Shown one piece after another: positions 4,939 through 34,587 of a DNA stretch of 64,000 bases (position 1 is the stretch's first letter; every line of letters starts with the position of its first letter). The notes below the pieces were generated by a model that was given only the letters and a program-made list of their open reading frames with translations, did no database searches and was not told where the DNA came from. This DNA comes from Haloferula helveola (GTDB lineage Bacteria; Verrucomicrobiota; Verrucomicrobiia; Verrucomicrobiales; Akkermansiaceae): contig NZ_AP024702.1 in NCBI RefSeq assembly GCF_037076345.1, positions 5,270,001 to 5,334,000 of the forward strand, read 5' to 3'. The translations under genes were made by a program, and so were the position numbers.

Positions 4939-6294
4939 ATGTGGAAAGGTCGCTTTGCCGTTGAAACCGCCGAACTCGTCCAGCAGTTCGGCGAGTCCAT
5001 CAGTTACGACTGGCGGCTCTACAAGCAGGACGTGGCCGGCTCGATCGCCCATGCGCACGCCCAGCGTGAGGCCGGACTCCTGACCTCCGAGGAATTCGAC
5101 CAGATCGAAAACGGACTGCGGCAAATCGAGGCCGACATCGACGGCGGCAAATTCGAGTTCAAGACGTCCCTTGAGGATATCCACATGAATATCGAGGCCG
5201 AGCTTACGCGCAGGATCGGCCCGGCGGGTGCGAAGCTGCACACCGCCCGTTCACGGAACGATCAGGTTGCGACCGACACCCGCCTTTACTGTAGGGCCGA
5301 GGTGGACGCGATCTCGGTCGGAATTCGCTCCCTCCAAAGCGCGCTTCTGGATCGTGCCGAGAAGTATGCTGCCACCGTGCTGCCCGCCTACACCCACCTT
5401 CAGCGGGGCCAGCCCGTGACCGTCGGCCATCACCTTCTCGCTTACGTCGAGATGCTGGATCGTGACCTCGGCCGTCTCGCCGACTGCCGCAAGCGGCTCA
5501 ATGTTTCCCCTCTCGGGTCCGGTGCACTCGCCGGATCGACGATCAATCTCGACCGTCAGGCGATCGCCGACGAGCTTGGCTTCGACCGCATATCCACGAA
5601 CTCGATGGATGCCGTTTCGGATCGCGACTACATCGTCGAGTTCCTCTTCGCCATGTCCCTCTGCGGCGTGCATCTGTCCCGACTATCCGAAGACCTGATC
5701 CTCTGGTGCTCGGCCGAGTTCGGATTCGTCACCCTGTCGGATGCGCACACGACGGGTTCCTCGCTGATGCCGCAGAAGAAGAATCCCGACGTCTGCGAAA
5801 TTACCCGCGGCAAAACCGGACGCCTTCTCGGCAATCTGGTTAGCCTGCTGACGGCCGTGAAAGGCCTCCCGCTGACCTACAACCGTGACCTTCAGGAAGA
5901 CAAGGAACCACTCTTCGATTCCATCGACACCCTCAAGCTCACGCTCGCGGTGAACGCCGAGATGATCGCCGCCATGGAGGTGCGCGAGGAGAATTGCAGC
6001 AGGGCCGCCAGCGACCCCATGCTGCTCGCGACAGATCTCGCGGACTGGTTGGTGAAGCAAGGCGTCCCTTTCCGCAATGCGCACGAACTCGTCGGGAAGG
6101 CGGTCGCCGAATCCGTCAAAACCGGCACCCCGCTGAACCAACTCGACCTGAGCGCGATCGACCCTGCCTACACCAGTGAGGCCGGTTCAGTGTTTGACCT
6201 AGGGAGAGCGTTGGCGGCCCGTACGAATCCGGGCGCGCCATCGGTTGAGAATGTTCGGTCGGAGATCCGCCGCTGGCGAGAGTCCGGACTTTAG
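4939..6294 (+). CDS. argH: Argininosuccinate lyase
   Basis: Last step of arginine biosynthesis: argininosuccinate to arginine plus fumarate. The 451-residue protein has normal family length and starts MWKGRFAVETAELVQQF. It carries the conserved HTARSRNDQVATD stretch near residue 100 and the fumarase/aspartase-superfamily signature SSLMPQKKNPD near 272-284, which holds the catalytic serine loop. The start is preceded by the fur-family gene without an obvious ribosome site. Its TAG stop interleaves with the TAA stop of the giant minus-strand gene in a four-base TTAG overlap, so the two genes converge with no terminator space. Confidence 0.97.
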   Translation: MWKGRFAVETAELVQQFGESISYDWRLYKQDVAGSIAHAHAQREAGLLTSEEFDQIENGLRQIEADIDGGKFEFKTSLEDIHMNIEAELTRRIGPAGAKLHTARSRNDQVATDTRLYCRAEVDAISVGIRSLQSALLDRAEKYAATVLPAYTHLQRGQPVTVGHHLLAYVEMLDRDLGRLADCRKRLNVSPLGSGALAGSTINLDRQAIADELGFDRISTNSMDAVSDRDYIVEFLFAMSLCGVHLSRLSEDLILWCSAEFGFVTLSDAHTTGSSLMPQKKNPDVCEITRGKTGRLLGNLVSLLTAVKGLPLTYNRDLQEDKEPLFDSIDTLKLTLAVNAEMIAAMEVREENCSRAASDPMLLATDLADWLVKQGVPFRNAHELVGKAVAESVKTGTPLNQLDLSAIDPAYTSEAGSVFDLGRALAARTNPGAPSVENVRSEIRRWRESGL

Positions 6295-9200
6295 TCCTTG
6301 TCGGCCGGCTCCGGAGTTTTCTCGCGGCGACATCCGATCACCAGGATGACGGCGGCAAGCAGGCCGATCAGTCCTCCGTAGAACCAGCCCTTCGGACGCT
6401 CCGGCTGAAGCTTGAGTTGAAGCGTCATTGGCTGATCGCCCTTCACCTGAAGGCTTCTCTCGAAGCGCAGCAAGCGGCCTTGGCCGAGGAGATCGACGCT
6501 CAGCGCGTCAGGCGCGCCCTCCATTTCCAGTTGCTGCTCGACGATTGCGTTGGCGATCTCACGCAGCGAGCTCGTTTCCTCGGCCGAGTTGCCCGCCATC
6601 AACCGGTCGAACTGGGTCGGATCGAAGTTGTAGTCACCCTGAAGAATCGGGTTCTCCTCGGCGGCCTGTTCGATCTGCTGGTTCGGCACGTCGACCTGGT
6701 TGAAGCGGTTGTCGAGGTAGTTCCGCTGGCGTCGGGTGTTCAGGCCGAGCACCGCCTGCTGCATCTTCAGATTCCGGAATTGGACCCGCGCGTCCTCGTT
6801 CGAGGCTTCGTCGAGGTAGCCATTGCGGGCTGCCTTGCCGAGCACCTTGCCGGCCTTGTCCTGTTGACCCGCCTGCAACCACGCGTAGCCCTGATCAAGC
6901 TCCGCAACGGCCTCGGCTTTGCCGCGGTCGCGACGTTGCTGAACATAGCCGCGATAATCAGCCAGGCTCATCTCGCCAACGTCGTCGGATCCGGTCCACT
7001 GGAAATCGCCCGAGCTGTCGGCAAGCAGCCAGCCCTCGGGCACGAATACATCCCAAGTCAGATTCTCAAGCGGCACGTCAAGCTGCGGTGCGACCAATTC
7101 GCCCACTCCTCCCGCGTCCAGAGAATAGGTGAATGCCACCTCCGCAGGACCGTCGCCGAGTGGCGAAGGACTTACGTAGAACAACCACTCATCACCATTC
7201 CGGACCAATGGCACACCTTCGCCATTGACGAGCAGGTTGAACGGCTTGGCGCCGCCGGGCAGGCGCAACCGAAGGCTGGCTTTCTCCGCCACCTCGATCT
7301 GCAGCTTCACCGCCGTCATCGATGATCCGTCCATCGAGATCAGCGTGCTCAGTCGGCCCGCGGTGACGCGCAGGGCTTCCGCGTCGGCGAGTCCGTGACG
7401 GGCGAGGGCGACTTGCAGGGGCGCTTCGGCCTCCGCCACACGGAAGGTGAAATCGGGCACTTCGGGTCCACGCAGCTCGCGCAGCACGGTTGGCACCGCA
7501 TTCCAGTCAAGCTTCTGCCAACCCCGGGGGATCGAGCCGAGACTCGCGTTGAGTCGGCCACCGGCTTCGACAGCGATGAAATACGACGACTGGCGGACAT
7601 CCGTCAGCTCGAGGGGAACCACCGCGAATTCCTTCGAGTCGCTTTGCCGTTGCTGCTGGAACTCGATGTCCACCGGCGTCTCCCCGGCGACACCGCGCTG
7701 GAAACGGATTTCCCAAACACCTTCTTCCCCGTCGATCGGAACGAAGTCGCCGACGGCCGGACCCGTGGCACGTACTGTCCCTGCAGCACGTTCATCGAGC
7801 CCCGGAAGCTTCACCCGGAGGCTCTTGCGCGCGGCATTCTCAATGCGGTAAAGCAGCCGTGCCTGAGTCCTCACCTGCCCTTCCCGCAGTGTCACTTGCT
7901 GGAGGACCTGAGCGGTGACCCACGGATCGAGTTCCTGCACCGCCAGTTCCAGCGACCAGTCCGCCTGCAGTAATCGGAATGCGAGCGCTCCCGGACGCGG
8001 CACACCCATCTCGCGTGGGTCCAACTGGGAGACGTTGCTACGATTCACGGCCCGCACCTGGAGTCCACGCTCGGGCACGACGCTCAACGTTCCCCGCTGC
8101 CGTGCCGCGTCGCGCAGCAACAGTCGGGGAACCGGCCAGGCCTCGATACTGCCGGGCGAAGGGCCGGCCAGGGACAACGAGAAGTTTTGTTGCCCCATGG
8201 TTCGCCCGTTGAGGTTGAGCGTCAGCAAACGGACGCCGTCGACCTCGCTTTCGGTCCAGTGACTGAGCGCACCACCGGTCACCGACTCGACTTCCATGCC
8301 CGCCGGCAGTTCCACCGTGAGACGGAAAACGCCTGCACGGCTGATCGTGGCAAGCAGGTCCGCGGCGAGCACCATTCGGTCGTCGCCGAGCGACAGGGTC
8401 TGCTTCATCTCGGCACGGATTTCCGGCGCAACCGGAGCAACCTTCAGGCTGACCGATGCTTCGTCGGACCCATACCGGAATGCGTGTTGAAGCAACGCGA
8501 GTGGGCGCTTCTTCGAGTCCATCGGAATGAGCACCGACGGGAAGTCGTCGAGATTGATCTCTCCCATGCCGGCAGGCTCGACGGCTTCCGGTTGCGCTTC
8601 GCCGCCGAAGCCAAGGCCGAGCATTCCTACCGAGCCTGACGAGCCTCCTACGCGCATCGGCGACAGCTTGAGGTCGACCGGCAATGACCCGGCAGCTTGC
8701 TGGGTTGCGGCCTCGAAGGTAAACGGCCGCTCCTGGGCAGGTTCGATCGCCACGCGAAGTTCGCGCGTCTCTGGATTGAAGCGCCAGCGCCCGACGGGTC
8801 CGCCATAGACGTCGCCGACCGTAAAGCCGTCCGGAACGGTCAGCAGGAGTTCGTCGACCACACCCTGGGCGGGCCGGACCGCGACACGGTGGATCCCGTT
8901 CACCACCCCGGGTCCCGGGAGGTAAAGGTCAGCCACCTCGGTGAAGAACTTCACCTCTTCCTGGCTCGCGTCGCGCTTCTTCGGGCGGACCAGCACCTTG
9001 CCCGGCTGGCCCGCAGCCAACTGGATTTCCGTAACCTTTCCTGCCATGCCGGCCCACACGACCTGCTCGCGGATCCTTGCGGCGCCATCCGCCTCGAATT
9101 GCCAACCTGGCTTCTCGTAGCGGGCGTAAATCGTCTGGACGGCTGCCGGCCCGGTCGGCACCGCGAAACCGTTTCGAGGTGAGCCCACCTTGAGCTGGTA

Positions 9201-12200
9201 GGACCCGGTGCCCTCGATAACCCCTTCCCGTTGGGCGATCATGACGTAGCCGCCATCCTGCTTCTCGACCTTCAGGCCGTCGGACTTGAATCCGGTGAGC
9301 ACGGCAGGCGCCGAAAGCAGATGGAATCGTTCTCCGATCTCCGAAGCGCGGACGCGCACATCGATCTCACCCTTCAACGATTCATCGGTGAGTTCCCAGC
9401 CTTGGACGATCGACTCCGCCGGCTCCATCGAGAACACCCGCTCGCCTAGTCCGAGGAATGCCAATGCAATCATTGTTGCTGCGGCCGCCGGGGTCTTCTT
9501 CAAACCCTTGAAGAATGCGATTGCCTTCGGAAATACGCCCAAGGCGAGGAGCGCGATCCCGAACAGGATGAAAAATGGCACCGCTCCGCCGTGCTGAGCC
9601 AGCACACCGAAGGCGATCAGCGCGACTCCTCCCGCGATCAGCGGACGAACCATCGACTGGCGTCCGACCGTCCTGAGGATCGCCCAAACCAAAAGCCCGC
9701 AACCGACCAAGGCGACAAAGACCCCCGCACCACTGACGAGAGCTTTCCATGGTTCCACATTGTCGACCACGACGTGCAGATCGGCGTTGCCGAGAATCGC
9801 AGGCGCGGTGTACTCCAGCGCCCCCAAACTTACCCTCCGCAAATCGAGCGCCTTGTCGGCCAACACAAAGGCCATCACCGCGGCTCCGATCATGATGGCC
9901 AACCCGAGGATCTGGATCGGGGGGATGCGGGCGAGCACCAACCCGATCACGGCGAACATCAGAAGGAGAGGAGCCCACCGTCGGCCATGGCTGGCGATCC
10001 ACTCGAAGCCGGTCTCGGTGGTGACCGGACGAACGAGTTGGGCACCCTCGGCATCATGGGGAATCAGGCGCCGATTCTCGTCGCCGCGCACCGTCCAGTT
10101 GGCGATGGCGGTTGCTGTGCCGACTTTCGGAGCGTCGAGTTGGATCCGCTCCTCCTCGAAACTCTGGCCATATCGCAGGACCACCTCGACCGCCTCATTG
10201 GGATCCACCTGTCGGGAAAGGGGCACGAGGGTCTTGGCGCCGTCCTTGCGGGCATTGACCCGCTCGCCATCGACGAGCGCCTCCCACAGGTTCGCACCCT
10301 CGGGAAGATTGAACTCAAGGGTGGCCGCACCTTTCGAGCGGGCAAACAGGCGCGCGGTCGTGACGACCTGTCCATCGCGCGACACATGACTGTCGAGCGA
10401 GGCGAAATCGATCACCTCTCCGATCGCCTCGCCGACCTCATACCACTGGATGTCCATCTGAAGGTCGACATCTCCGGCGGTGTACTGCCAAGCGCCGAGT
10501 GTCGGCGCACTGGTGAGCAGGCGGTATTCGGCGGGCAACTCCGTGGCGTCGATCCGAAGCACGGACCCTTCGCTCTTCGTGACGGACGAATTCACCTGGA
10601 GCGGACTGGTCACCTGCACGTAGCCCCGTTCCGATTGCACGCCCAACGGGCGGATCTCGCCAGGCTTCAGTGTTCCGCCCCGGGCGCTCATGGGTTGCTC
10701 GAAAGTCACCAGCAAGATCGACGCGCCAAGGGCGGGACGGGCGAGCGGAACGATGAGTTCCTCACCCTCGCGACGCCAATCGCGCCCGACCCCTTGTCCG
10801 GTCACCTCGATGTTGCCGATACCTTCCGGCACCCGCAGACGCCACTCGTTGGACGGAGCACCAACCACGAAATAGTTGAGGACGACACTGCCGTAAGCCA
10901 CACCCTCCTTCAGCGAGTAGAGATGGAACACGTCCGCCTGCACGCTCTGGGCAAGAGCTTCGACCTTCATCGTGCAGGTCCACGCCTCGTCACGGATCCG
11001 GAATCCCTGCTGAAGTCTCGCCATCTTCTTCGGAAAGTAATCGACCGGGGTTTCGACGAGTCCGGTGACTTCGCCGGGCACGACCCGGTATCCGGCTGCC
11101 GAAGCGACTCCGATGTAACCCCTACTCGACTTGGCTCCGTCATGCCGAAGTCGTGGCAGCGTCCACTCACCTGCAGCGGCTCCCTCATTTCTCTCCAGCT
11201 TCATCTGGATCAACTGCCGCCCACTCACGGCCTCGCTGAAGAGGAACTTCAGCATCCGCATGCCGTCCTTTTCTTCGCTCGCCAGGCTGTAGTCCGCGAC
11301 CGCGGCTCCGGTCACCTCGGCCACCGCGAAGGCGGCGGGAATCCCGACGCTCCACTCGCGCACCGGGGCCTCGCGAATATCCAACTCAAGATCGCTTAGA
11401 ATGCGCCGGTCGGTCTCCCCCATTTCATGGATGGTCACCTCGGACACACTCACTTCCGGCAGCACCTGATCGGCCGCGACCGAATATTCATAGTCCCCTG
11501 AGGGGAATCGGTAGACGAAGACCTGGCGGAAACCCTTCGCCTCGCCACCCGGAAACTGAGCGGGGGCGAGCTGCATCATTCCCTTCTCGCCGACAACCTC
11601 CAACCGAACCGCTCCTTCGTTGGCGATGCGCAGGTAACCACTGTGCCGTAGCGTGCCTTCGGGAAGGAAGCGCATCGGAGCGGCCTTCACGGGAAAAGCT
11701 CCGAGGGCCGACTGGCTAACCACACTCAGTTGTTCCGTGCCCTCGATCGGGCGGCTCAGTTCGACGTCGAGAAAGCGTTTTCCGTCGGCCTCGCGAAGCG
11801 ACCAACCGAGCACCGGATCGCCATCGACCGACAGTACCTCGCCCGGCCCCTCAATCCCGATGCGTACCGTCTCCAGCTTGCCCTGCAGGATCCGGAAGCC
11901 CACTTGCGACGATTGGCGGATCAGTCCGGCTCCGACACGAACCTCGGCAACCTCGCTCGAGGAAAAGAACAAGGCGCCGTCATCTTCCATTCCGGACTCC
12001 TTCCATGCCATCCGCGCGTTGCCTTGTGCGTTCAGGAAACCCAACCAACTCTTGCCCTTCTTCTCGGGCACGAGCTGGCGCCCCGGATCGAAAGTCAGCT
12101 CCTCGCCAAGACCCTCGAGCCGGACCGGAACCACAACCCCGGCCGGGAGGTCGAAGGCAAGCATTCGCCAATCGTCGCTCCGATCGGCGGCCACCTCGAA

Positions 12201-13178
12201 GGTGAGCTCAAGCGGTGCCACGCCAAACGCCTCGCCACTCGCGACCAGTTCGTGAACCCAGGTCTTGCCCTCGCGCGCGAGTCGGACGTGCCAGTTCGGA
12301 CCGGACACCTCACCCGTCAGGGCAACCCCCCTGAGCAAAACCAGCGACGCATCCGCTTCGCGTGTGCGGACGCGGCCGGTGAGAGTGAACGACATGCTCT
12401 TGCCATCCTCGGCCAGCTGTCCGGTGAGACGCGGATCGATCAGTTCGATGCCGGCGGTCTTGCCGGTGTCGGGAACCACTTCGATTCTCATCTTGGCAGG
12501 CCCACTCCCTTGGAAGCGCAGGCCTTCACCTTCCTCGCGCACCATTCCTCCGATCTCGAGCACCTTGCTCCGGAACCCCTGCTCTTCCTGAATGAGCAGT
12601 TTCGACGTGAAGCCGACCGCATCCCCGGCCGCCGGAAGCAACTGTGCGAAAACGGTCTCATCATCCAGGTCGTGGGTCGCGGTCACCGAGAAACGGAACG
12701 TCTTCGGTCCGTCCACCACCGGCGCGGGAGGCGCGATCGGCCGGAACGGCGCGATTCCGTCCCACCACGGATTCACCGTATTGAACGAAGGGCTCTGTGG
12801 CTGCGCGGCCGGCAGTTCGGGAAACAGGTCGAGGAATCGACGTCCATCGGATTCCCGGCGGACCGCCCACGACTTGAGGATCTGGCCTTTCTGGGGCTTC
12901 ACCTCGGTGACTTCTCCATCTCCGGCGAGACCGATCGACAGTTTCTCCGCCCTTCCCTGATGCACGTTCACCGTGAGCTGCATGCTGGTGAGCGCACGCG
13001 AGCCGTTGTGCGAGGCGGTGGTCGAGGCGTCGACCGAATAGAAGAGCGGCGGTTGCTGTTTGATCTTCTCCGCCGGAACCACCGCAACACCTTCACCGAG
13101 GCCCTGCCCGCGGGCATTGAGTGTGATCGCGGCGAGCGCGAGGACTGTCCAGATCCTACTTCCTAACAAGGTCTTCAT
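6291..13178 (-). CDS. Giant secreted/membrane protein of about 2300 residues with repeated beta motifs, function unknown
   Basis: I do not recognise a named family. I prefer the ATG at 13178 (MKTLLGSRIWTVLALAAI, a signal peptide) over the GTG seven codons earlier, because GAGA lies upstream of the ATG. The protein looks extracytoplasmic and rich in beta strands. A degenerate motif of the form VxxVtGxxVxxWxxxxxdGxRxLxL recurs at least seven times, at nt about 12835-12925, 11761-11838, 11236-11330, 10735-10815, 8745-8823, 8208-8297 and 7697-7782. A cluster of about six or seven hydrophobic helices sits in the middle (nt about 9420-9990), and a last helix near the C-terminus (GWFYGGLIGLLAAVILVIG) is followed by a short charged tail. 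It lies directly downstream of the VWA and ECF sigma genes and is presumably in their operon. It has no enzyme motif that I can see. Confidence 0.9.
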   Translation of the reverse strand: MKTLLGSRIWTVLALAAITLNARGQGLGEGVAVVPAEKIKQQPPLFYSVDASTTASHNGSRALTSMQLTVNVHQGRAEKLSIGLAGDGEVTEVKPQKGQILKSWAVRRESDGRRFLDLFPELPAAQPQSPSFNTVNPWWDGIAPFRPIAPPAPVVDGPKTFRFSVTATHDLDDETVFAQLLPAAGDAVGFTSKLLIQEEQGFRSKVLEIGGMVREEGEGLRFQGSGPAKMRIEVVPDTGKTAGIELIDPRLTGQLAEDGKSMSFTLTGRVRTREADASLVLLRGVALTGEVSGPNWHVRLAREGKTWVHELVASGEAFGVAPLELTFEVAADRSDDWRMLAFDLPAGVVVPVRLEGLGEELTFDPGRQLVPEKKGKSWLGFLNAQGNARMAWKESGMEDDGALFFSSSEVAEVRVGAGLIRQSSQVGFRILQGKLETVRIGIEGPGEVLSVDGDPVLGWSLREADGKRFLDVELSRPIEGTEQLSVVSQSALGAFPVKAAPMRFLPEGTLRHSGYLRIANEGAVRLEVVGEKGMMQLAPAQFPGGEAKGFRQVFVYRFPSGDYEYSVAADQVLPEVSVSEVTIHEMGETDRRILSDLELDIREAPVREWSVGIPAAFAVAEVTGAAVADYSLASEEKDGMRMLKFLFSEAVSGRQLIQMKLERNEGAAAGEWTLPRLRHDGAKSSRGYIGVASAAGYRVVPGEVTGLVETPVDYFPKKMARLQQGFRIRDEAWTCTMKVEALAQSVQADVFHLYSLKEGVAYGSVVLNYFVVGAPSNEWRLRVPEGIGNIEVTGQGVGRDWRREGEELIVPLARPALGASILLVTFEQPMSARGGTLKPGEIRPLGVQSERGYVQVTSPLQVNSSVTKSEGSVLRIDATELPAEYRLLTSAPTLGAWQYTAGDVDLQMDIQWYEVGEAIGEVIDFASLDSHVSRDGQVVTTARLFARSKGAATLEFNLPEGANLWEALVDGERVNARKDGAKTLVPLSRQVDPNEAVEVVLRYGQSFEEERIQLDAPKVGTATAIANWTVRGDENRRLIPHDAEGAQLVRPVTTETGFEWIASHGRRWAPLLLMFAVIGLVLARIPPIQILGLAIMIGAAVMAFVLADKALDLRRVSLGALEYTAPAILGNADLHVVVDNVEPWKALVSGAGVFVALVGCGLLVWAILRTVGRQSMVRPLIAGGVALIAFGVLAQHGGAVPFFILFGIALLALGVFPKAIAFFKGLKKTPAAAATMIALAFLGLGERVFSMEPAESIVQGWELTDESLKGEIDVRVRASEIGERFHLLSAPAVLTGFKSDGLKVEKQDGGYVMIAQREGVIEGTGSYQLKVGSPRNGFAVPTGPAAVQTIYARYEKPGWQFEADGAARIREQVVWAGMAGKVTEIQLAAGQPGKVLVRPKKRDASQEEVKFFTEVADLYLPGPGVVNGIHRVAVRPAQGVVDELLLTVPDGFTVGDVYGGPVGRWRFNPETRELRVAIEPAQERPFTFEAATQQAAGSLPVDLKLSPMRVGGSSGSVGMLGLGFGGEAQPEAVEPAGMGEINLDDFPSVLIPMDSKKRPLALLQHAFRYGSDEASVSLKVAPVAPEIRAEMKQTLSLGDDRMVLAADLLATISRAGVFRLTVELPAGMEVESVTGGALSHWTESEVDGVRLLTLNLNGRTMGQQNFSLSLAGPSPGSIEAWPVPRLLLRDAARQRGTLSVVPERGLQVRAVNRSNVSQLDPREMGVPRPGALAFRLLQADWSLELAVQELDPWVTAQVLQQVTLREGQVRTQARLLYRIENAARKSLRVKLPGLDERAAGTVRATGPAVGDFVPIDGEEGVWEIRFQRGVAGETPVDIEFQQQRQSDSKEFAVVPLELTDVRQSSYFIAVEAGGRLNASLGSIPRGWQKLDWNAVPTVLRELRGPEVPDFTFRVAEAEAPLQVALARHGLADAEALRVTAGRLSTLISMDGSSMTAVKLQIEVAEKASLRLRLPGGAKPFNLLVNGEGVPLVRNGDEWLFYVSPSPLGDGPAEVAFTYSLDAGGVGELVAPQLDVPLENLTWDVFVPEGWLLADSSGDFQWTGSDDVGEMSLADYRGYVQQRRDRGKAEAVAELDQGYAWLQAGQQDKAGKVLGKAARNGYLDEASNEDARVQFRNLKMQQAVLGLNTRRQRNYLDNRFNQVDVPNQQIEQAAEENPILQGDYNFDPTQFDRLMAGNSAEETSSLREIANAIVEQQLEMEGAPDALSVDLLGQGRLLRFERSLQVKGDQPMTLQLKLQPERPKGWFYGGLIGLLAAVILVIGCRREKTPEPADKD

Positions 13179-13250
13179 CGATTCTCGGGTGGGGTTCACA
13201 GGGTGCTTTATCGCCGCACGCAGGCGGCTTCTGGGTAAATCCGTGGTAAA

Positions 13251-16200
13251 TTATCGAAGCTGGCCGATCATCCGGTTGAGCTTCTCGACCGGTTCGGCTC
13301 CCGTGTATTTCGCAGCGACATTGCCCACCACCGGTGCCAATTCGCGGAAGTCAACCGCAGCCGCCATCGGGGCATCGCGCAGGCGCTCGGCCGTGAAGGC
13401 AGCCAGACCGGCGAGTTGGAGAGAAGGCGCCGCGCGGTCGAAGGCAGGTGCCTGCGGGTCATAGGGAATGGTCCAGTTCCGCTCGACCATTCGCCCGGTC
13501 GCGGCATCACGGAAGCGCACACGGACTTCACCGACCTCCCCCCGCCCCTCCGGCTTCACTTCGAACTGATAGAGCGCGACTCCCGCCTCTTCCGAAGCCA
13601 TCTCGGCGGCATCCACCGCGTCGTTGCGGAAGTCCTCCTTCTTGAGCCGGTGTTCCTCGAAGCCGATCAGCTTGTAGAGATTTATCCGGTCCGGGTTGAA
13701 AACGACCTGGACCTTCACGTTCTCCGCGGCCGGCCGGAACGCACCTGCCAGTTTCTTCGCAAAGCCCGCGTCGGCTTCCTCGGGAGTGTCGACCACGTAG
13801 TAGCGGCCGTTGCCGTTGCGCGTCAGCCGTTCAAGGAGCCGGTCGTTGAGTCCGTCGGCCCCGAATCCGGCAGCATCGAACGCGATGCCGTTGTTCCGGA
13901 GTTCCTCGACCTTCCGATTCAGTGACTCGGGATCGGCATCACCGAGATTCGCGGCACCGTCGGTGAACAGGACCACCCGGTTCTGGGCGCCGTCGATGAA
14001 CTGGCGGGTGGCGAGCTCGGAGCCGAGCGTCAGTGCATCCTCCAGATTGGTTCCGCCTTCCGCCGGCAGTTGGGCAACCAACCCGTTGAGCTGGGCTGCG
14101 TTGCTTCCGTCCAGGCGGTCCGCCAAAAGCCTCGGCTGACGGGCGAATCCCGCGACGCTGATCTTGTCTCCCGGCTGGAGCAGGCTTGCGAGTTGTTCGA
14201 CTGCTTGGCCGACACCCGCGGCCCGGTCGTCCCGTTCCATGGACCCCGAGTTGTCGAGAAGCAGCGTGAGATTGAGAGGCGTCGACTGGCCGCGTCCCGC
14301 GGCCCCTGTGCGCACGGCCACCCGCATCAGATTCCGCTGGGGAAATGCCGGGTGGGCACTCTGCTCGATCACACATGCCACCGGTTCGCCATTCGCCGGG
14401 GACGGATCGCCGTAGTCGAAGGCGTTGTAGAACTCTTCCGGTCGGATGCCCTCCTTGTCGGGGATCTCGCCCCGTTCCATCGCCGCTGCGGCAACTTTGA
14501 AGGATGAATCGCTGACATGGAGGGAGAAGGTCGAATAGGGCTCGTCGGCCGCCGAAACCTCTTCCATCAGATCAAGTGGCTCGATCACCGGCTCCGGCAC
14601 CGGGTGAAGTTTCGTCAGTTCTTCGACGAGCTCGAGGCTCGTTCCCGTACCCCGGACCAACAGCGTTGAATTTTCCGGGAAGTATTGAACGGAAGAATCG
14701 GGTCCCAGATGGACACCGTTGCGAACGAGAAGATCCCGAACGCTGGTCCTGCCTTGCAGAGCCGCCGAGTCGGTTGGCGCGGCGAACGGATCGTCGACGA
14801 TCACGCCCGCCGTGCTTTCGGTCTCTGTAGCCAGGCGCGCGATGAAGTCCGGCGCGACCTCGAAGGTGCGCGTCTGCAGATCCTCTCCGGCTTCGGTAGC
14901 CGGCTTCACGACCACCGAATGATCGTCGGCGAACCACCTCATCCGTGAAGCTTCCGCGACATAGTTGAGCGCTTCGCCCAAGGGCACGTTCCTCAACCGT
15001 AGCTCGGAAATCCTGGAGTCCGCCTCGCTCCCCCCGCCAAGCTCCATGTCGTTTTCGGGGAGCCGGTCCGGCGTCTTCAGGAACAGGTTGATACCCTCTC
15101 CGCTGGGATCCGCTTCAAGCGCCTTGGCTTTCAACGTATCGAGCGCTTCGGCGACCGATACATTCTTGAAGTCAACCTCGGGGATCACGATCTCATTGAG
15201 CTTCTGCAACTGGGCGGCCTGCGCCACCTCCCGCTTCTCGCCTTCGACCGGAGGCACAGTCATTTCCCAAGAAGCATCAACCTGCGAAAGCAACTCGGCC
15301 CGCGTTTGGTCGTAAGCGGCCCGGTAGTAGCTCGACTGTGCCTCACCGACCTTCTCCAGTCCGCGCCGCGCCGACATATTGTAGGGATCAACCTTGAGAG
15401 CATCCTCGTAGTCCGTTCGGGCGCCATCAAGGTCTCCCAACTCCATCTTGCCTTCGGCTTCGACGAGCGAACTGCGCACCGCCTCAATCTGCTCGTCGTG
15501 CTTGCCCGTCATGGCGGGATTCGTGCGGATCGGATCTTGCAAGGCCTCCTTCGCACGTTTGGCATACTCGTTTCCAGGGTCACGCTTCAGAGCTGAGTCG
15601 AGCAGCTGCTCGGCTTCCTCGTAGCGCCCCATCCGCCGGCTCTCTTCTGCCGACGCGACCTCCGCATCCGCCAGCGACTGCTTGAGGAATCCTTTTCGGT
15701 CCTCCATCAGCGGCGCGTCGGGGAGCACCTCGAGGCTCTCGCGATATCGTTCCCGTGCCTCATCATACTCGCCCCGCGAGTAGGCATCGCGGGCGTCGTC
15801 GCGCTTCCGATCGGATTCCGCGACCGACAACTGCCTACGCAGCATCTCCTGCTCCACCAACTTTGAGTAGCCGCTGATGTTGCCGCTTCCACTTACGGGC
15901 TTCGAGTCGTCAGGCGCATTCCCGCCAGCCAAGGCCCCGTTCCGGCCATCAACCAGCCCGGCATCTGGTACTGCCCGCTCCAAGCGCTCCAATTCAATCC
16001 CGAGCGCCATCGTCGAATCCAATTCCCGGACCTTCTTGTTCTCGGCCTGCCGCTCTTTCTGAAATTGGACAAGGCCCTCGGCGTTCTCAGCAGGCGGTTC
16101 CGGTTGACCGGTAACAGGCGGGATGCGGTCGACAATCATACCTCGAGCGTGCGGCACCTCTCCGCCGCGACCCGCAGTCCGGCCATCTTGATCGGGAACC

Positions 16201-17570
16201 GGGTTGGCGAGCCGCGTCGTTGGCACCGGTCCCGAGTCATCGATCTTGTAGCGGACTTCCTCGGTCGGCAGAGTTGCCGGTGCGGGTGGTGGTTCCGGAC
16301 GGTCTTTGGCAGCGCGGCCTCGGCCGTTCTCAAGTCCGGTAACGAAGTCATCCATGTTCGCGTCGCCAAAAGGGTCGCCGGCCACGTTCGAGTTGCCGTC
16401 GCTCGTGCCGCCATTCACCCCGTAAAACGGATCCACGGCCGGACCTGATGCGACCGATCCTTCCGGATCGGCGGGAGCGTTCACGTTGCCCGCGGTCCCA
16501 CTGTAGAATCGATCGCCACCCGGTTCGCCATCCTTCGATTCGTCTTCGCCGAACAAACGACCTCCGACCGGAATATCTCCGAGGAGCGGGACACCTTTTT
16601 CAGCGGCGACGCCCCCTCCGACCTGCCCGGGACGCCCTGCATCACCGGAATTCATCTTCCAGTTCTTCTCGTCGGTGGAATTGGTATTGAAACCTCCGCC
16701 ACCGCCACCGGTGACACCCCACCCGTTCCCAAAACCGTCGCCATCGCTGAAGACGATGCTGGGTTCCTCAACCGCTTCCGGTTCGGGAACGGGAACGGCG
16801 GCAGGCGCGACGGTGTTCGAGGCGACCGGCGCGTCCTTGTCGCGCTCCAAGACAATCGCGGGCTTCTGCGGAGCCGGCAGGATCCCGTCGATCGACTGCT
16901 CGGCGACCTCGGCATCTCGTGACCGATAGGCGATCGAACCCAAAGAGATCGAATCGTTGGTCTCCACTCCCTCCATTGCGGCAAGCGAATCCTCTTTCCA
17001 ACCGTCCGTCGCCGCTCCCGACTGCCTGGAGAATCGAGGCGAATTGGAGGTGCCATTAGGCAGCTCGGGTGGTTCGTATTCCGTATTGTAGTGGAACTCA
17101 CGAGTGACCTCGACCTGCGCTTGCTCGTCAGCGGCTGCCGCCGAGTAGGCGACAATCATTTCCGGACTCATCTCCACCGAGTTTCCCACCCGACCCATTC
17201 CCGCCATCGCCCCCCAGAACGCGACCGTCAGGACTACCAGCGCGGCGGCGACCGACCACCATGGCATGCTCCGACGCCTGGTCTTCTTCTTCGATTCGTC
17301 GTCCTCGCCTAACAGCTTCATCACCTGCCAGCGTTTCGCCTCGGGCAGGCGCCAATCCGCGTCTGGTTTGTTCTCCCCATTCTCGGCCACGAGGCCGTCG
17401 AGCATGCGGATCCTCCGGACAAACAGCTTCAGTTCCGGATCCTCTTCGACCTGCTTCTCGAGCTCAGCCGCCTCGAACGGCGAAGCCTCGCCAAGAACCC
17501 AGGCGACGATCCGCGCCTCAAGCGCGTCGTCTCCCACCGGTTCCAGTGGCTGGTTCGTGTCGTCGTTCAT
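13251..17570 (-). CDS. Anti-sigma-like transmembrane protein with TPR region and YfbK-type von Willebrand factor A domain
   Basis: Start chosen at the ATG at 17570 (MNDDTNQPLEP), which has GGAGAG just upstream; the reading frame extends further into a repeat that overlaps the sigma gene. Residues 1-100 resemble the cytoplasmic N-terminus of PVC anti-sigma-type proteins (AWVLGEASPFEAAELEKQVE) but lack a zinc-binding HxxxCxxC. One membrane helix lies near 100-126. Then come a long Gly/Pro-rich disordered stretch, a TPR-like helical region (about 590-740) and two secretin/STN-like segments (about 795-890 and 960-1010). A YfbK-type N-domain and a VWA domain with an intact MIDAS (LLLDNSGSM, about 1102) follow, then a DUF3520-like C-terminus. 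Predicted topology is tail in the cytoplasm and VWA outside. It sits between the ECF sigma gene and the giant-protein gene. Confidence 0.9.
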   Translation of the reverse strand: MNDDTNQPLEPVGDDALEARIVAWVLGEASPFEAAELEKQVEEDPELKLFVRRIRMLDGLVAENGENKPDADWRLPEAKRWQVMKLLGEDDESKKKTRRRSMPWWSVAAALVVLTVAFWGAMAGMGRVGNSVEMSPEMIVAYSAAAADEQAQVEVTREFHYNTEYEPPELPNGTSNSPRFSRQSGAATDGWKEDSLAAMEGVETNDSISLGSIAYRSRDAEVAEQSIDGILPAPQKPAIVLERDKDAPVASNTVAPAAVPVPEPEAVEEPSIVFSDGDGFGNGWGVTGGGGGGFNTNSTDEKNWKMNSGDAGRPGQVGGGVAAEKGVPLLGDIPVGGRLFGEDESKDGEPGGDRFYSGTAGNVNAPADPEGSVASGPAVDPFYGVNGGTSDGNSNVAGDPFGDANMDDFVTGLENGRGRAAKDRPEPPPAPATLPTEEVRYKIDDSGPVPTTRLANPVPDQDGRTAGRGGEVPHARGMIVDRIPPVTGQPEPPAENAEGLVQFQKERQAENKKVRELDSTMALGIELERLERAVPDAGLVDGRNGALAGGNAPDDSKPVSGSGNISGYSKLVEQEMLRRQLSVAESDRKRDDARDAYSRGEYDEARERYRESLEVLPDAPLMEDRKGFLKQSLADAEVASAEESRRMGRYEEAEQLLDSALKRDPGNEYAKRAKEALQDPIRTNPAMTGKHDEQIEAVRSSLVEAEGKMELGDLDGARTDYEDALKVDPYNMSARRGLEKVGEAQSSYYRAAYDQTRAELLSQVDASWEMTVPPVEGEKREVAQAAQLQKLNEIVIPEVDFKNVSVAEALDTLKAKALEADPSGEGINLFLKTPDRLPENDMELGGGSEADSRISELRLRNVPLGEALNYVAEASRMRWFADDHSVVVKPATEAGEDLQTRTFEVAPDFIARLATETESTAGVIVDDPFAAPTDSAALQGRTSVRDLLVRNGVHLGPDSSVQYFPENSTLLVRGTGTSLELVEELTKLHPVPEPVIEPLDLMEEVSAADEPYSTFSLHVSDSSFKVAAAAMERGEIPDKEGIRPEEFYNAFDYGDPSPANGEPVACVIEQSAHPAFPQRNLMRVAVRTGAAGRGQSTPLNLTLLLDNSGSMERDDRAAGVGQAVEQLASLLQPGDKISVAGFARQPRLLADRLDGSNAAQLNGLVAQLPAEGGTNLEDALTLGSELATRQFIDGAQNRVVLFTDGAANLGDADPESLNRKVEELRNNGIAFDAAGFGADGLNDRLLERLTRNGNGRYYVVDTPEEADAGFAKKLAGAFRPAAENVKVQVVFNPDRINLYKLIGFEEHRLKKEDFRNDAVDAAEMASEEAGVALYQFEVKPEGRGEVGEVRVRFRDAATGRMVERNWTIPYDPQAPAFDRAAPSLQLAGLAAFTAERLRDAPMAAAVDFRELAPVVGNVAAKYTGAEPVEKLNRMIGQLR

Positions 17571-17579
17571 GGTTCTCTC

Positions 17580-17612
17580 CGTTCGATGTTCAAAGTTGGG
17601 CGTTCGATGTTC
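17580..17612. repeat. Pair of 12-bp direct repeats (GAACATCGAACG on the minus strand)
   Basis: CGTTCGATGTTC occurs at 17580-17591 and exactly again at 17601-17612, a period of 21 bases, separated by 9 bases of unrelated sequence. It lies in the short gap between the sigma stop and the VWA start. Translated in the VWA frame it gives HRTPNFEHRTER, a peptide seen, from memory, as a spurious N-terminal extension in many Verrucomicrobia annotations because similar GAACATCGAAC-type repeats are scattered through those genomes. Function unknown. Confidence 0.75.
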
Positions 17613-17619
17613 GCGCTTG

Positions 17620-18192
17620 CTATCCCTCCGAGCCCTCAATCCCCATACGCCGCAGCGACATGGAGAGCCCCTTCAGGAGGTGGTGCAGCTTGTAGCCGAC
17701 ATTGCCGACCGACAGGCCCGTCCGGGTGCTGATCTGCTCGTATTTCAGGCCTTCATGGTATTTCAGGCGGATCAACGCCTGCTCCTCGTCGGGCAGTTCG
17801 GCTAGCAACAGCCTGACCGCCCCCATGGCCTCCATTCGCGCGAGCTGTTGTTCGGGGCCGCCGGTGTTGTCCCACTCCGGCGGCTCGTCGGTCACCCGCT
17901 CCCGCTTGTGGTCGCGGAGGTGGTTGAGTGACAGGTTCCGGACCGTGCGAAAAAGCCACGCCCTCGGGTTCGCGACCTCGTCCCAATGCTCATGCAGCCG
18001 GACGAAGGCATCCTGGACGATATCCTCGGCCACCTCACGCCGCCCGAGGATTCCGTAGGCGAACCGCAACAGCGGGCCCTCCTCGGCCTCAAAAATCCCA
18101 CGGAGTGTCGGTTTCTCGGGATTCATCGGACCTAGGGTGACCACCGTCGCCGGCTTAGCCTTGGATGACCGGGGCTGTCGGGCGGGTTTCAT
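17620..18192 (-). CDS. ECF-type RNA polymerase sigma factor (sigma-70 family)
   Basis: Group IV sigma factor of about 190 residues. Region 2 is clear (FAYGILGRREVAEDIVQDAF and the following RAWLFRTVRNLSLNHLRD), and region 4 has the helix-turn-helix LKYEQISTRTGLSVGNVGYK. The ATG at 18192 is preferred over a TTG two codons earlier; an ATG at 18126 is also possible and would give a shorter, more canonical N-terminus. It is the first gene of the minus-strand block that continues with the anti-sigma-like VWA protein and the giant protein, so the likely regulator of this sigma is the next gene. No -35 GAAC/-10 GTC autoregulatory promoter could be made out with confidence. Confidence 0.93.
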   Translation of the reverse strand: MKPARQPRSSKAKPATVVTLGPMNPEKPTLRGIFEAEEGPLLRFAYGILGRREVAEDIVQDAFVRLHEHWDEVANPRAWLFRTVRNLSLNHLRDHKRERVTDEPPEWDNTGGPEQQLARMEAMGAVRLLLAELPDEEQALIRLKYHEGLKYEQISTRTGLSVGNVGYKLHHLLKGLSMSLRRMGIEGSEG

Positions 18193-18383
18193 GGGCAATC
18201 ATCATCGACCTTTCCTTAGCGACACACCAGCCGGGGATTCCTTGGGCGAATTCGCGGATTTTCTCCCCGGCAGGCGGATTCATTGGCCTCACCCGGCCAA
18301 ATTGTGACCCCGGCGGCCATTTTCGGGTCAGGATCGGGGCTTGCGAAAGAATCGGCCCACCGACCAGTATCCGCCCGCGCTCG
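18193..18383. promoter_or_regulatory. Divergent intergenic region between the ECF sigma gene and tatC
   Basis: About 190 bases with no convincing reading frame. It must carry the promoters for both the sigma/VWA/giant block (minus) and tatC-yicC (plus). I see no clear paired -35/-10 elements, inverted repeat or riboswitch. Confidence 0.45.
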
Positions 18384-31022: not shown

Positions 31023-31128
31023 GCGGGCAGGCTGACAACTCGGATGGCCGACCACAAGCCGCCGGAATTGAAGATCGTTGCCAGCCGGTAGTTGCCGATT
31101 CGGCAAACGGGGTTCATTCTGCCTGCGG

Positions 31129-34100
31129 ATGGCGGATGAGGAAAAACCAGCCAAGAAGCAGCCCGCGAAGAAGGCGAAGAGACGGTTCTGGCGCAAGAAG
31201 CGGTGGTGGACGCTCTTCCTGCTCGTTGCCGGATTGGTTTGGCTCGATGGTCCCGGTTGGCGTTGGATCGCCCAAAAGGCGGCGAGTCATTACCTTCCGG
31301 AGCTCGGGTATGAGGTGGAGTTCGAAGTCGACGGTCGACTGTCATCCGGGGAGCTGAGCGTTTCGAATGTCAGTCTGACCGGCGACGAAGCGGTTGTGAA
31401 AGTCGCCGGCCTCGACTCGCTGAAGGTCGGCTACCTGCTCCCGAAAGTGGTCCGGGGGGAGGTCGAGTCGGTTATTCTCGACAATCTGCACGTCGACGTG
31501 GACCTCGCGGCCGTTCCGCCGAAGGAAGACGAGGAATCCGAGCCGAGTGACCCTGCCGAGCTCTTGGCCAACCTCAGGCAAAGGCTGGTGCCGATGCAGA
31601 TCGAGTTGCGAAACATCAGTGCGATCATCCGGCGCGGTGACGAGCTCCTCTTCTCCATCGAACCGACGACCCTGCTGCATTCCCCCAATGAAGATGAGTT
31701 CGAGCTCGATCTCGGTGACATGGAACTGCCCGGAGGGCGTGCCATCGCCGCGCAGCAAGCGACGCTATCGTGGACGCCCGGCGAACTCACCATCGACAAG
31801 TTGAAGTTGATGGACGGAATATCTGTCCGCGACGTGCTCGCGCGATTTGCCGAAGGCGAGCAACCGGAGTTCGGCGCGGGTATTGTTCTCGACGAAAAGC
31901 GCATCGACGTGACGACGGATCTAAGTGTCGCCTCTGTCATCCTTCGTGAGGAGATCCCTTCCCTCAAAGAGACAGCCAAGCTTTTCGCATTCGAACTCCC
32001 TGCGGAGGGCGCGCTGCACAAGCTCGACCTCAAGGTCACAGGAATCGATGGCGGTCTCGAAACCCTGGCGGGAGAACTCGAACTCGAGTTGGGAGACGTC
32101 GCCTACGATGATTGGACCGCTGAAGTGCTCGAGCTCCGCGCCACACTCGAGGGCTCCCGGGCCGACCTCGGCCTGACGGGAATCGCCTTGGGTGCCCCTC
32201 TCCAGCTTGGCGCGGAGGCCGAATTGTCGCGTTCCGAGATGGAACTCCTCCCGACCCGCGCGACCGCCAACCTGGAGACGCCGAATCTCGAGCGAATCCT
32301 AACAGCGGTAAGGGACCGCTTCACTCCTTCCGATGATCCCGTGCAGGTGCCAGCATCGTCGCTCAAGGTCAACGCTTCCGCTGACTTCACGAAGGGATTG
32401 CCTTCCGCCGCTCGCGCCGAACTCGCAATCGTCAGCAGCGTCGATGCCCCGCCCGTTTCAATCGATGCGACTTGGAACGACTCGCAGGAAATCACGGCTG
32501 CCGTCCGTCTCCCGGCGGTGGAAATCGATGGGGGCTTCGCGCTGGAGGCGAAGACCTACGAAGGGACGGCGAGTCTGGATTCATTCACACCGAGCTCGCT
32601 GAGAGCGTGGCTCCAGCCCTTCGGCATCGAAGTTCCCGACGGCATCCTAGCCACCCTGGACTGGGAAGGTTCCGGCGATCTCGAGCAGAACAGGCACCAA
32701 GGCAAACTTGAGATCAACGGCGCCGAGTGGAAGCGAGACGAAGACTCCGACACGCTGAAGGCCTTCGCTTCCGCTGAATATGCATGGCCGGAGTCGGTCA
32801 AGCTGGCCCCTCTGAACGTCCAGCTTTCCACCCAGAAGATCGAGACCCGTGCCGAACTGTCCGACCGCACCCTGACGCTTGAACAACTCGAGTGGAGCGA
32901 CGCCGACGAGGTCCTTGCTTCCGGCAATGCCAGCATTCCCGTTCCCGAGGATCTCTCCGACTGGAAAGCTCTTCTTCGGGAAACACGGCCGATCGAACTG
33001 AAGTTCGAAACACCCGAGCTGCCGCTTTCGAAACTTCATCCGTTTCTCCCGGAGAGCTCCAGGTTCGTGGATTCGAGCCGCGCCAAGCTCTCGATTCACC
33101 TGACGGGATCCCCGGCCAATCCGGAGTTGGATACCAATCTCACCGCACTTGAACTCGGCCTGGTGAGCCAACCGGACGTTCCGCTTGCAAACATTGAACT
33201 CGAGGCCGTCGGGAAGGAGAAGACCCTCAAGCTCGAGGGCGAGGTCACCGCGCCGGGTTATCCTCCCGCGGTCATCAGTGCGGTGACGAACTGGGATCCG
33301 GACCAATGGGCTGAGGATCCGGATACCGTCAAAGCCGCCAGCCTCGATGCGAGGCTCACGCTGACGGACCTCAACATCGCAACCCTCGGGTCGTTCCTTC
33401 CCAAGACCAAGAAGCTGTCGGGCGAGATCAATGCCATGGTGGAGGTCACCGGCACGGTTGGCGAACCGGCTCCTCGGGCCGAAGTCACTCTCGATGGCGG
33501 CGCCTTCGAGATGCACGACCCCGGAGTGCCGCGTGTGAGCAAGGGTGCGTTGCGCGTCACGGCAACTCCCGCCGAAGTCAACCTGGAGAATCTGTCTGCC
33601 GAGGTTTCCGGGGGCACACTCGTGATCAACGGCGGGATCAAGCTGAACGATGGGAAGCCGGGTGACGTGAATCTCGCGATCGACGCGAAGTCGCTCCCGG
33701 CGGTTCGCAACGAATCGATGATTGTCCGGATCAGTTCCGATTTGAAGGTTGGCGGACCTTGGGAGACCGCCCGCATCTCCGGCGGCATCAAGGTCGTCGA
33801 CAGCCTGTTCTTCAAGGACATCGAGCTGCTGCCGATTGGCGTGCCGGTCAACAAGGTCGCCGAGCCGAGCTTGCCGGCCATCGATGCCCCGCCCCCTTCC
33901 GAGCTTGCAGCAAAAGTGCCGGCTCCCTTCAACGATTGGTCCTTGGATGTCTCGCTGAAGACGGGCAGTCCGTTCCTCATCCGGGGCAACCTCGCAAACG
34001 GCGAAGTGTATGTGGATGCGCGGATCGGGGGCGCCGTCGGCACTCCCCGCCCAAGCGGTGAAATCAAGCTTCGCGAGATCGAGGCGAAACTCCCGTTCAG

Positions 34101-34587
34101 CACGCTTGAGATCGACGCGGGCAAGATCACGCTCCGTCCCGATCACCCTTTCGACCCGGTTCTCGACATCCGTGGCACCTCGCGCATCCGCCCGTATGAC
34201 GTCACCATCTATATCTACGGCCCGGTCTCGGATCCGAATATCCAGCCGACTTCGAGTCCTCCGCTCGCCGAAACGGAAGTCATGACGCTCATCGCCACAG
34301 GCACGACAACCCGGGGCTTCGAGGATCCGAGCGCTGCCACGGCACGCGCAACGCAGCTGCTGATCGAAGAGGCCCGACGCGGTCGCATCGGAGCGGTCAA
34401 AGTGCTTCGCCCGGTCTTCAAGGTTCTGGACAAGGTCGACTTCCAGGTCGGTGAGGTCGATCCCTACACCAGCAAGAAATACAACTCGGCCACCTTCAAC
34501 CTCGATGACAACTGGCTGCTGACCGCCGGAATCAGCGATGAGGGCAACACCCGAACCAAGGTCACTTACCTGCTCCGCTTCGAGTGA
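31129..34587 (+). CDS. tamB: TamB-like translocation and assembly module protein (AsmA/DUF490 family)
   Basis: Inner-membrane-anchored periplasmic bridge protein implicated in lipid transport or outer-membrane protein assembly. Start at ATG 31129 (MADEEKPAKKQPAKK), 1152 residues. A basic N-terminus is followed by one membrane helix (about 27-43: WWTLFLLVAGLVWLDG). A very long stretch of repeating beta strands alternates hydrophobic and charged residues, as in the beta-taco fold, and the C-terminal DUF490 domain ends with the GTSRIRPYDVTIYIYGPV and PPLAETEVMTLIATG segments. Its stop overlaps the start of the BamA-family gene by 4 nt (GTGA), the standard tamB/tamA linkage in inverted order. Confidence 0.93.
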   Translation: MADEEKPAKKQPAKKAKRRFWRKKRWWTLFLLVAGLVWLDGPGWRWIAQKAASHYLPELGYEVEFEVDGRLSSGELSVSNVSLTGDEAVVKVAGLDSLKVGYLLPKVVRGEVESVILDNLHVDVDLAAVPPKEDEESEPSDPAELLANLRQRLVPMQIELRNISAIIRRGDELLFSIEPTTLLHSPNEDEFELDLGDMELPGGRAIAAQQATLSWTPGELTIDKLKLMDGISVRDVLARFAEGEQPEFGAGIVLDEKRIDVTTDLSVASVILREEIPSLKETAKLFAFELPAEGALHKLDLKVTGIDGGLETLAGELELELGDVAYDDWTAEVLELRATLEGSRADLGLTGIALGAPLQLGAEAELSRSEMELLPTRATANLETPNLERILTAVRDRFTPSDDPVQVPASSLKVNASADFTKGLPSAARAELAIVSSVDAPPVSIDATWNDSQEITAAVRLPAVEIDGGFALEAKTYEGTASLDSFTPSSLRAWLQPFGIEVPDGILATLDWEGSGDLEQNRHQGKLEINGAEWKRDEDSDTLKAFASAEYAWPESVKLAPLNVQLSTQKIETRAELSDRTLTLEQLEWSDADEVLASGNASIPVPEDLSDWKALLRETRPIELKFETPELPLSKLHPFLPESSRFVDSSRAKLSIHLTGSPANPELDTNLTALELGLVSQPDVPLANIELEAVGKEKTLKLEGEVTAPGYPPAVISAVTNWDPDQWAEDPDTVKAASLDARLTLTDLNIATLGSFLPKTKKLSGEINAMVEVTGTVGEPAPRAEVTLDGGAFEMHDPGVPRVSKGALRVTATPAEVNLENLSAEVSGGTLVINGGIKLNDGKPGDVNLAIDAKSLPAVRNESMIVRISSDLKVGGPWETARISGGIKVVDSLFFKDIELLPIGVPVNKVAEPSLPAIDAPPPSELAAKVPAPFNDWSLDVSLKTGSPFLIRGNLANGEVYVDARIGGAVGTPRPSGEIKLREIEAKLPFSTLEIDAGKITLRPDHPFDPVLDIRGTSRIRPYDVTIYIYGPVSDPNIQPTSSPPLAETEVMTLIATGTTTRGFEDPSAATARATQLLIEEARRGRIGAVKVLRPVFKVLDKVDFQVGEVDPYTSKKYNSATFNLDDNWLLTAGISDEGNTRTKVTYLLRFE

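Follow-up and report, generated by a model that had tools for sequence, protein, structure and literature searches.

The 64,000-nucleotide stretch of the Haloferula helveola genome analyzed here (contig NZ_AP024702.1, positions 5,270,001 to 5,334,000; hereafter "the window") raises the question of what function joins three successive genes on its minus strand (6291–18192), which encode, in this order, an extracytoplasmic function (ECF) sigma factor, a membrane protein ending in a VWA domain, and a giant envelope protein. The initial annotation had read this set as a signaling system in which the VWA protein senses an extracytoplasmic state and holds the sigma factor, with the giant as partner, sensor, or output. 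All three genes were found where it had placed them, and its reading gained support from two sides: the order sigma–VWA–giant is kept in two phyla, and the N-terminus of the VWA protein is, judged by its sequence, an anti-sigma domain. On balance, we therefore consider it probable that the locus encodes a sigma/anti-sigma switch that spans the membrane and is shared by Verrucomicrobiota and Planctomycetota, in which the VWA domain serves as extracytoplasmic reader. The recurrence of the three-gene unit in both phyla suggests an undescribed way of sensing the state of the cell envelope.

The sigma factor gene (17620–18192, minus strand) specifies a protein of 190 residues, for which an alignment of 24 sequences was assembled. 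Regions 2 and 4 were both detected above the Pfam cut-offs (Sigma70_r2, 58.8 bits; Sigma70_r4_2, 42.1 bits), as was TIGR02937 above its own (83.7 bits), so that the ECF assignment stands. The open reading frame of the VWA gene spans 13251–17639 and begins with TTG; homology and an upstream GGAGAG point to the ATG at 17570 as the actual start, and the gene is accordingly taken as 13251–17570 (minus strand). Its product (P0002) consists of an N-terminal domain common to 24 aligned sequences, a hydrophobic helix, a long linker, a PilQ-like segment, and the VWA part.

The N-terminal domain (17295–17570, minus strand) lacks zinc ligands in the window, and the HxxxCxxC pattern is absent from the alignment of the window form with 23 further sequences. 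In 29 of 33 divergent orthologues, this pattern is present ahead of the membrane helix, with the histidine and both cysteines invariant in those 29. The Pfam family zf-HC2 matches all of them (29/29), a count that is not independent because the 29 had been chosen by the motif. When the zinc-less domain of the window was compared with the zinc-type orthologues by hhalign, homology was obtained with 96.5% probability (E 7.3e-10), whereas eight control pairs did not exceed 0.6%. The antisigma model NF052375 also matches the window domain (E 6.4e-5), although below its cut-off. Thus, the search for an anti-sigma match, whose failure would have told against the initial annotation, turned out in its favor.

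A single transmembrane helix was found by hydropathy at residues 127–149 (17193–17261, minus strand), again as annotated. In the structural model of an orthologue (L081), residues 11–60 are helical with a predicted local distance difference test score (pLDDT) of at least 90, most of residues 391–826, which comprise the VWA part, score above 90, and a helix at 116–140 is likely the membrane helix. The C-terminal part of the window protein (13254–14558, minus strand) is of the YfbK type: vWF_A, VWA, and YfbK_C all score above their Pfam cut-offs, with YfbK_C spanning positions 4–62 of 184, and each of the three was detected in all 36 aligned proteins (E ≤ 0.01). The residues of the metal ion-dependent adhesion site (MIDAS), namely D1129, S1131, S1133, T1197, and D1227, are invariant in 26 of 26 aligned sequences, and the matching columns of a second alignment are likewise invariant (36/36), so that the site can be regarded as intact. 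Foldseek searches with the L081 model returned, as best matches in the PDB, the ArnAB complex, other VWA proteins, the inter-alpha-inhibitor heavy chain, and pilus adhesins; BatB (3ibs) was among the matches as well.

The segment preceding the VWA part (14610–15884, minus strand) corresponds to the tetratricopeptide repeat (TPR) and N-domains of PilQ-type secretins. Residues 586–1009 match positions 17–452 of 805 of the Amuc_1098 PilQ model (NF042912) with 439.9 bits, compared with a cut-off of 750; the secretin barrel is not covered, and in the model search the VWA protein thus falls short of a full-length Amuc_1098 PilQ. Residues 588–1010 share 54% identity with the PilQ encoded in this genome, and that PilQ reaches 1190.5 bits with the same model. 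However, the model matches only 17 of 36 VWA orthologues, and the region preceding the VWA domain has a mean identity of 11% in 40 sequences. The TPR region and secretin-like segments named in the initial annotation are thus present, but as one PilQ N-terminal unit rather than as separate parts, and they are not conserved. Because many orthologues lack the match, the segment was rejected as the core of the module; the PilQ-like middle is specific to some lineages. STN and Secretin_N, to both of which the window protein has weak matches, were found at E ≤ 0.1 in only 3 and 4 of 40 orthologue segments, respectively, and the L081 model is weak in this region; STN was therefore rejected as a general feature of the reader. 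The linker contains a lone stretch (16530–16607, minus strand) resembling the conserved end of the secretin barrel (VPLLGDIPVGGRLF), for which the Pfam match, at residues 347–369, is weak (E 0.021). In other families of Verrucomicrobiales (L059, L062, and L065), the later part of genes related to one half of the giant is 26–35% identical to the PilQ N-domains carried by the VWA protein of the window.

The giant (6291–13199, minus strand) comprises 2302 residues when read from the GTG of the open reading frame; the ATG at 13178, which precedes a signal peptide-like stretch, is the likelier start. No Pfam family scored above its cut-off in this protein. An N-terminal beta copy (approximately residues 150–1070; 9990–12752) is followed by a cluster of hydrophobic helices (1074–1233; 9501–9980), a C-terminal copy of the beta unit (approximately 1270–2260; 6420–9392), and a C-terminal membrane anchor (2270–2292; 6324–6392), all on the minus strand, with the helices and the anchor assigned by hydropathy. 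The N and C parts are homologous (hhalign E 2.6e-38 over 765 columns), and an AlphaFold model of residues 36–1070 is mostly strand (mean pLDDT 86.7), which agrees with the earlier description of a giant beta-repeat envelope protein of about 2300 residues. In one relative (L053, genome G042), the frame of the giant contains a single in-frame TGA.

If the three genes form a functional unit, they should be found together elsewhere. The giant was present in 36 of 57 related genomes, including 16 of 17 congeneric ones, and in 23 of the 36 regions read around these giants, sigma, VWA, and giant genes follow one another in order on one strand. Among the remaining 13, two start at a contig edge that falls within the VWA gene (L037 and L056), two are contig-end pieces of the giant (L066 and L068), and nine (L057–L065) contain only weak half-giant relatives, neither a sigma nor a VWA gene being matched in them. 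When named genomes were scanned with the VWA alignment, 396 relatives were obtained, of which the best 80 were kept; among these, the closest by VWA domain is Haloferula rosea (81% identity). Wherever the contig left room in these loci, the sigma gene was found upstream of the VWA gene (61/61 with more than 700 bases), the anti-sigma domain was present (61/61), the giant was found downstream (73/73 with more than 1500 bases), and the order was complete (59/59). The named loci span Verrucomicrobiota and Planctomycetota, the latter represented by Rubripirellula, Neorhodopirellula pilleata, and Rhodopirellula maiorica.

As the 80 had been picked by VWA similarity, 387 Verrucomicrobiota genomes were sampled for both proteins, with up to four VWA and up to two giant candidates scored per genome. 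Among the matches listed, a giant was found in 72 genomes, in 65 of them with at least 100 bits, and 59 of these 65 also contained a module-type VWA protein (52 on the same contig within ∼3 kb, 7 on other contigs), the module type being told from ordinary YfbK by eye, on score and range. One genome (G417) had the VWA protein and no giant; its VWA match lies 94 bases from the contig start. In 40 divergent Verrucomicrobiota regions that were read, the VWA gene was present in 34, followed by the giant in all 34 and preceded by the sigma gene in 33 of 33 with room, in one case (L167) by a fragment only. At that locus (genome G284), the fragment has 137 residues and 48 bits, and a sigma gene of 110 bits stands after the giant. 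Two giant-only regions (L174 and L175) lie on contigs that end beside the giant. Within Planctomycetota, matches to the giant at E ≤ 1e-10, many of them weak, were found in 61 of 246 genomes; in the ten strong loci that were read, the VWA gene is upstream in 9 of 9 and the sigma gene in 6 of 6 with room, one of the latter at 30 bits. Whether the three genes always co-occur, as the initial annotation had proposed to check, thus has a divided answer: VWA loci with room always had the sigma gene upstream (61/61, 33/33, and 6/6), but giants sometimes stand apart, in at least four genomes.

Pairs of half-giant genes (L057–L065 and L200–L209), all weakly related, were not counted as members of the module, since of these 19 loci, several of them short, only L205 has sigma and VWA genes beside it. 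L205 (Planctomycetota, genome G562) consists of a sigma gene, a VWA gene with a zinc-type anti-sigma domain, and two half-giant genes. The half-giant pairs seem to belong to the superfamily of the giant and to be able to occupy the same type of operon. The module can be duplicated: two copies were found in one metagenome bin (L078 and L080, on two contigs of one isolate) and two in genome G351 (L164 and L165). None of the 72 genomes with a giant match belongs to genus g3 of the same family, which could be Akkermansia, although this is only a guess; the module is also present in some records under the title Akkermansia muciniphila, the labels of which may be wrong.

A predicted ECF-type promoter, CCAAGGAA-N12-GTGTCGCT (18218–18245, minus strand), lies 25 bases before the sigma start and is the sole site in the window genome that matches the degenerate pattern without mismatch. 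In this branch, the motif upstream of sigma can be written as CYAAGRAW-N12-GTGTCKTT, and CCAAGGAT-N12-GTGTCGTT is matched there at 11 or more of 16 positions in 21 of 24 loci. The mean best score in this set was 13.5 with a spacer of 12, whereas none of nine other spacers exceeded 10.58 and shuffled sequence gave 9.25, but the motif was derived from the same 24 loci, which favors it. The named loci provided 62 usable upstream regions, 12 of them the same as in the first set and the other 50 independent. In these 50, the mean best score was 11.46 of 16 with a spacer of 12, compared with 9.0–10.04 with eight other spacers and 8.92 after shuffling, and a score of at least 11 was reached in 35, compared with 1–17 for other spacers and 3.6% of shuffles. 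Because this promoter-like motif precedes the sigma gene in the branch of the window, autoregulation of the sigma factor is likely there, which gives a positive answer, at the level of sequence, to the earlier question of whether it controls its own promoter.

Other members of the putative regulon were sought with the same pattern. In the window genome, 23 sites with up to two mismatches were found compared with 14 in the reversed control; a regulon defined by pattern was therefore rejected there, and only the zero-mismatch site was used. In 18 congeneric genomes, a tighter pattern with up to two mismatches gave 25 sites compared with 1 for the reversed pattern, and 12 of the 25 are module promoters. 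Of the other 13, nine stand 5–78 bases upstream of a gene whose product has a hydrophobic segment at its N-terminus; these speak for a regulon of exported proteins, although their share lacks a random-site control and depends on start codons chosen by the analyst. A further three fall within long reading frames, and the last precedes no clear gene. Predicted targets in relatives include a serpin (312 bits), a DUF4139 protein, and, in two species, a second giant. The latter is an exported protein of ∼2150 residues with no sequence match in Pfam or PDB (window genome, C1:2559302-2560687; L267:195-6764), and in the window genome it is associated with the motif form CCAAGAAA-N12-GGTTCTAT. It was found in 26 places, 23 of which were tested for the motif. 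Among the eleven best copies (at least 218 bits, query included), the motif reached at least 13 of 16 in seven and not in four; it was present before five of five copies from genomes with the module and two of six from genomes in which none was found. These seven score 13–15 of 16 with a degenerate pattern, other spacers being only 0–3 lower, and the score of one (L272) was equaled by 3 of 50 shuffles. Twelve weaker copies (27–35% identical, all from genomes with a giant match) did not exceed 12, the starts of two of them (L284 and L285) being doubtful. The predicted promoter before the second giant thus rests on strict-pattern matches in two species.

In 19 hand-picked ordinary YfbK loci of Verrucomicrobiota, examined in regions of 10–12 kb, a same-strand sigma match was found beside the VWA gene in 18, four of them weak (24–39 bits; L295, L301, L305, and L313), and a weak anti-sigma match (15–35 bits) in 12. 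The exception without a sigma gene (L302) encodes a protein that begins like a lipoprotein; at a twentieth locus (L296), the sigma gene stands beside that for a 448-residue protein with an anti-sigma domain. In module VWA proteins, the match to the alignment model extends at least to position 438, apart from three truncated by the end of a contig; in 16 of the 19 ordinary YfbKs, it ends no later than position 371. Thus, the C-terminus of the VWA protein differs where the giant is present. The sigma factor and the predicted anti-sigma–YfbK protein are, accordingly, a wider unit, only part of which includes the giant. Elsewhere in the window, a TamB-family protein is encoded on the plus strand (31078–34587).

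How such a switch might operate can be outlined. At rest, the anti-sigma domain would keep the sigma factor at the membrane, while the VWA domain would use its metal site to contact the giant or something displayed by it. That the giant is encoded next to the VWA gene in almost every module locus read makes it the likeliest partner. If the envelope changed, this contact would be altered, whereupon the anti-sigma domain would release the sigma factor, either by a change in conformation or by proteolysis. The free sigma factor would then transcribe its own operon, which would replenish reader and giant, plus a small set of genes for exported proteins. The contact between the VWA domain and the giant, the signal, and the release step are inferred.

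A number of observations weigh against a sensory switch built from these three parts. The gap between VWA and giant genes amounts to up to 2515 bases in the named loci and to 2.8 kb in L154, so that the giant is not always adjacent. Six of the 65 strong giants are without a VWA protein found in the genome (G203, G229, G160, G178, G263, and G372), absences in this sample being soft owing to the few candidates scored per genome, and in four regions (L170–L173) the giant stands alone, neither a sigma nor a VWA gene being matched in the 1.7–7.3 kb available beside it. No giant was found in any of the 19 regions (10–12 kb) around ordinary YfbK genes; as sigma and anti-sigma–YfbK pairs occur without it, the giant would be dispensable for the basic switch. 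The promoter-like motif reaches a score of 11 in only 3 of 33 divergent Verrucomicrobiota loci and 0 of 6 from Planctomycetota, and it precedes the second giant in two genomes in which no module was found (G040 and G039). The main rival builds on part of this evidence and holds that the giant is output only, that is, a structural envelope protein co-transcribed with its regulator and without a role in signaling, whereas the VWA domain reads something else. The ordinary pairs (18/19 with a sigma gene) indicate that the reader can work alone, the giants of L170–L173 do without sigma and VWA, and the other predicted targets are exported proteins just like the giant. However, the giant accompanies the module-type VWA protein in 59 of 65 genomes, among the matches listed, and the VWA C-terminus changes with its presence, both of which speak against mere output. 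We regard the output-only giant as a serious possibility, if the lesser one.

The PilQ-like segment invites a different explanation, namely, that the switch reads the type IV pilus: the segment would join, or compete with, the secretin ring, and the sigma factor would report pilus assembly. This would fit its close similarity to the genome's own PilQ, and PilQ was located in the outer membrane of Akkermansia (PMC4960237). As fewer than half of the orthologues match the PilQ model and the pre-VWA region is so poorly conserved, a pilus sensor appears improbable. It is still less probable that the VWA protein is a membrane scaffold whose N-terminal domain, having lost its function together with the zinc ligands, is no longer the anti-sigma factor of this sigma factor. 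HxxxCxxC is indeed absent from the window form and from the 23 sequences in its alignment, but ∼44% of the class I anti-sigma domains in a large collection have no zinc motif (PMC7406223), and the zinc-less domain stays conserved and beside an ECF sigma gene. The sensory switch can also be taken further. By analogy only, it might be a bacterial counterpart of integrin-type outside-in signaling: a metal-dependent VWA receptor fused to an anti-sigma domain would sense whether a giant beta-sandwich rod in the envelope is occupied or under tension and would pass this on to transcription, and YfbK-type VWA domains would serve the ECF anti-sigma factors of both phyla quite generally as sensor heads. 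We put this forward tentatively, as rather less likely than not. A known fold for the giant had to be rejected: Foldseek searches of its N part (36–1070) against PDB gave E-values down to 7.2e-8 but, among the matches listed, TM-scores of at most 0.16 over the query, and those against a viral library were no higher. The PDB matches were chains of the oligosaccharyltransferase complex (which we take to be ribophorin I/Ost1), integrin alpha chains, and M1-type aminopeptidases, and the modeled fold is read as a generic chain of beta sandwiches.

To our knowledge, few ECF sigma factors of Verrucomicrobiota and Planctomycetota have a known input. A three-gene unit of fixed order, present in both phyla, together with a searchable promoter motif, makes one such input testable. 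It would also offer a possible role for YfbK-type VWA domains, the C-terminal part of which Pfam names "uncharacterized", as sensor heads of anti-sigma factors, and it provides a context for a giant that is without a Pfam family above cut-off and came with the switch in most of the strong-giant Verrucomicrobiota genomes sampled. The parts are known, but the combination of all three was not found in print: no paper describing it was found in the open-access literature by titles and the starts of abstracts, although a listing of ECF groups may contain it, and neither "VWA" nor "von Willebrand" occurs in the main text of the ECF papers that were searched for these words.

The comparison with known systems can be made part by part. 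The Bat aerotolerance proteins also place a VWA domain in the envelope, and in the Bat system BatD is a beta-rich partner; however, we know of no Bat operon with a sigma or anti-sigma part, and the giant belongs to no Pfam family above cut-off. With Amuc_1098 and PilQ secretins, the window protein shares TPR and N-domains, but it has no secretin barrel, remains well below the model cut-off (439.9 vs. 750 bits), and joins these domains to a VWA domain. The YfbK family (PF12034 and PF12450) has the same succession of vWF_A, VWA, and the start of YfbK_C, whereas here this part forms the far end of an anti-sigma protein and YfbK_C is covered only at positions 4–62 of 184. Class I anti-sigma factors (zf-HC2) likewise carry an N-terminal anti-sigma domain next to an ECF sigma factor, and divergent orthologues of the window protein have their zinc motif, but a sensor end of the VWA type was not found in the main text of the ECF papers searched. 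A parallel in layout is offered by the cell-surface signaling systems FecI–FecR–FecA and PupI–PupR–PupB. There, an ECF sigma factor is paired with a regulator that crosses the membrane once, carries its anti-sigma domain at the N-terminus, and touches an envelope protein through its periplasmic part. An STN subdomain forms the end of PupR (PMC7186176), and the window VWA protein resembles it in part through its weak STN and Secretin_N matches. No FecR family was among its 23 Pfam matches (E up to 1), and no TonB-dependent transducer was found among the ten window proteins scanned. The reader at this locus is a YfbK-type VWA domain, and the neighboring gene encodes a giant beta-rich protein.

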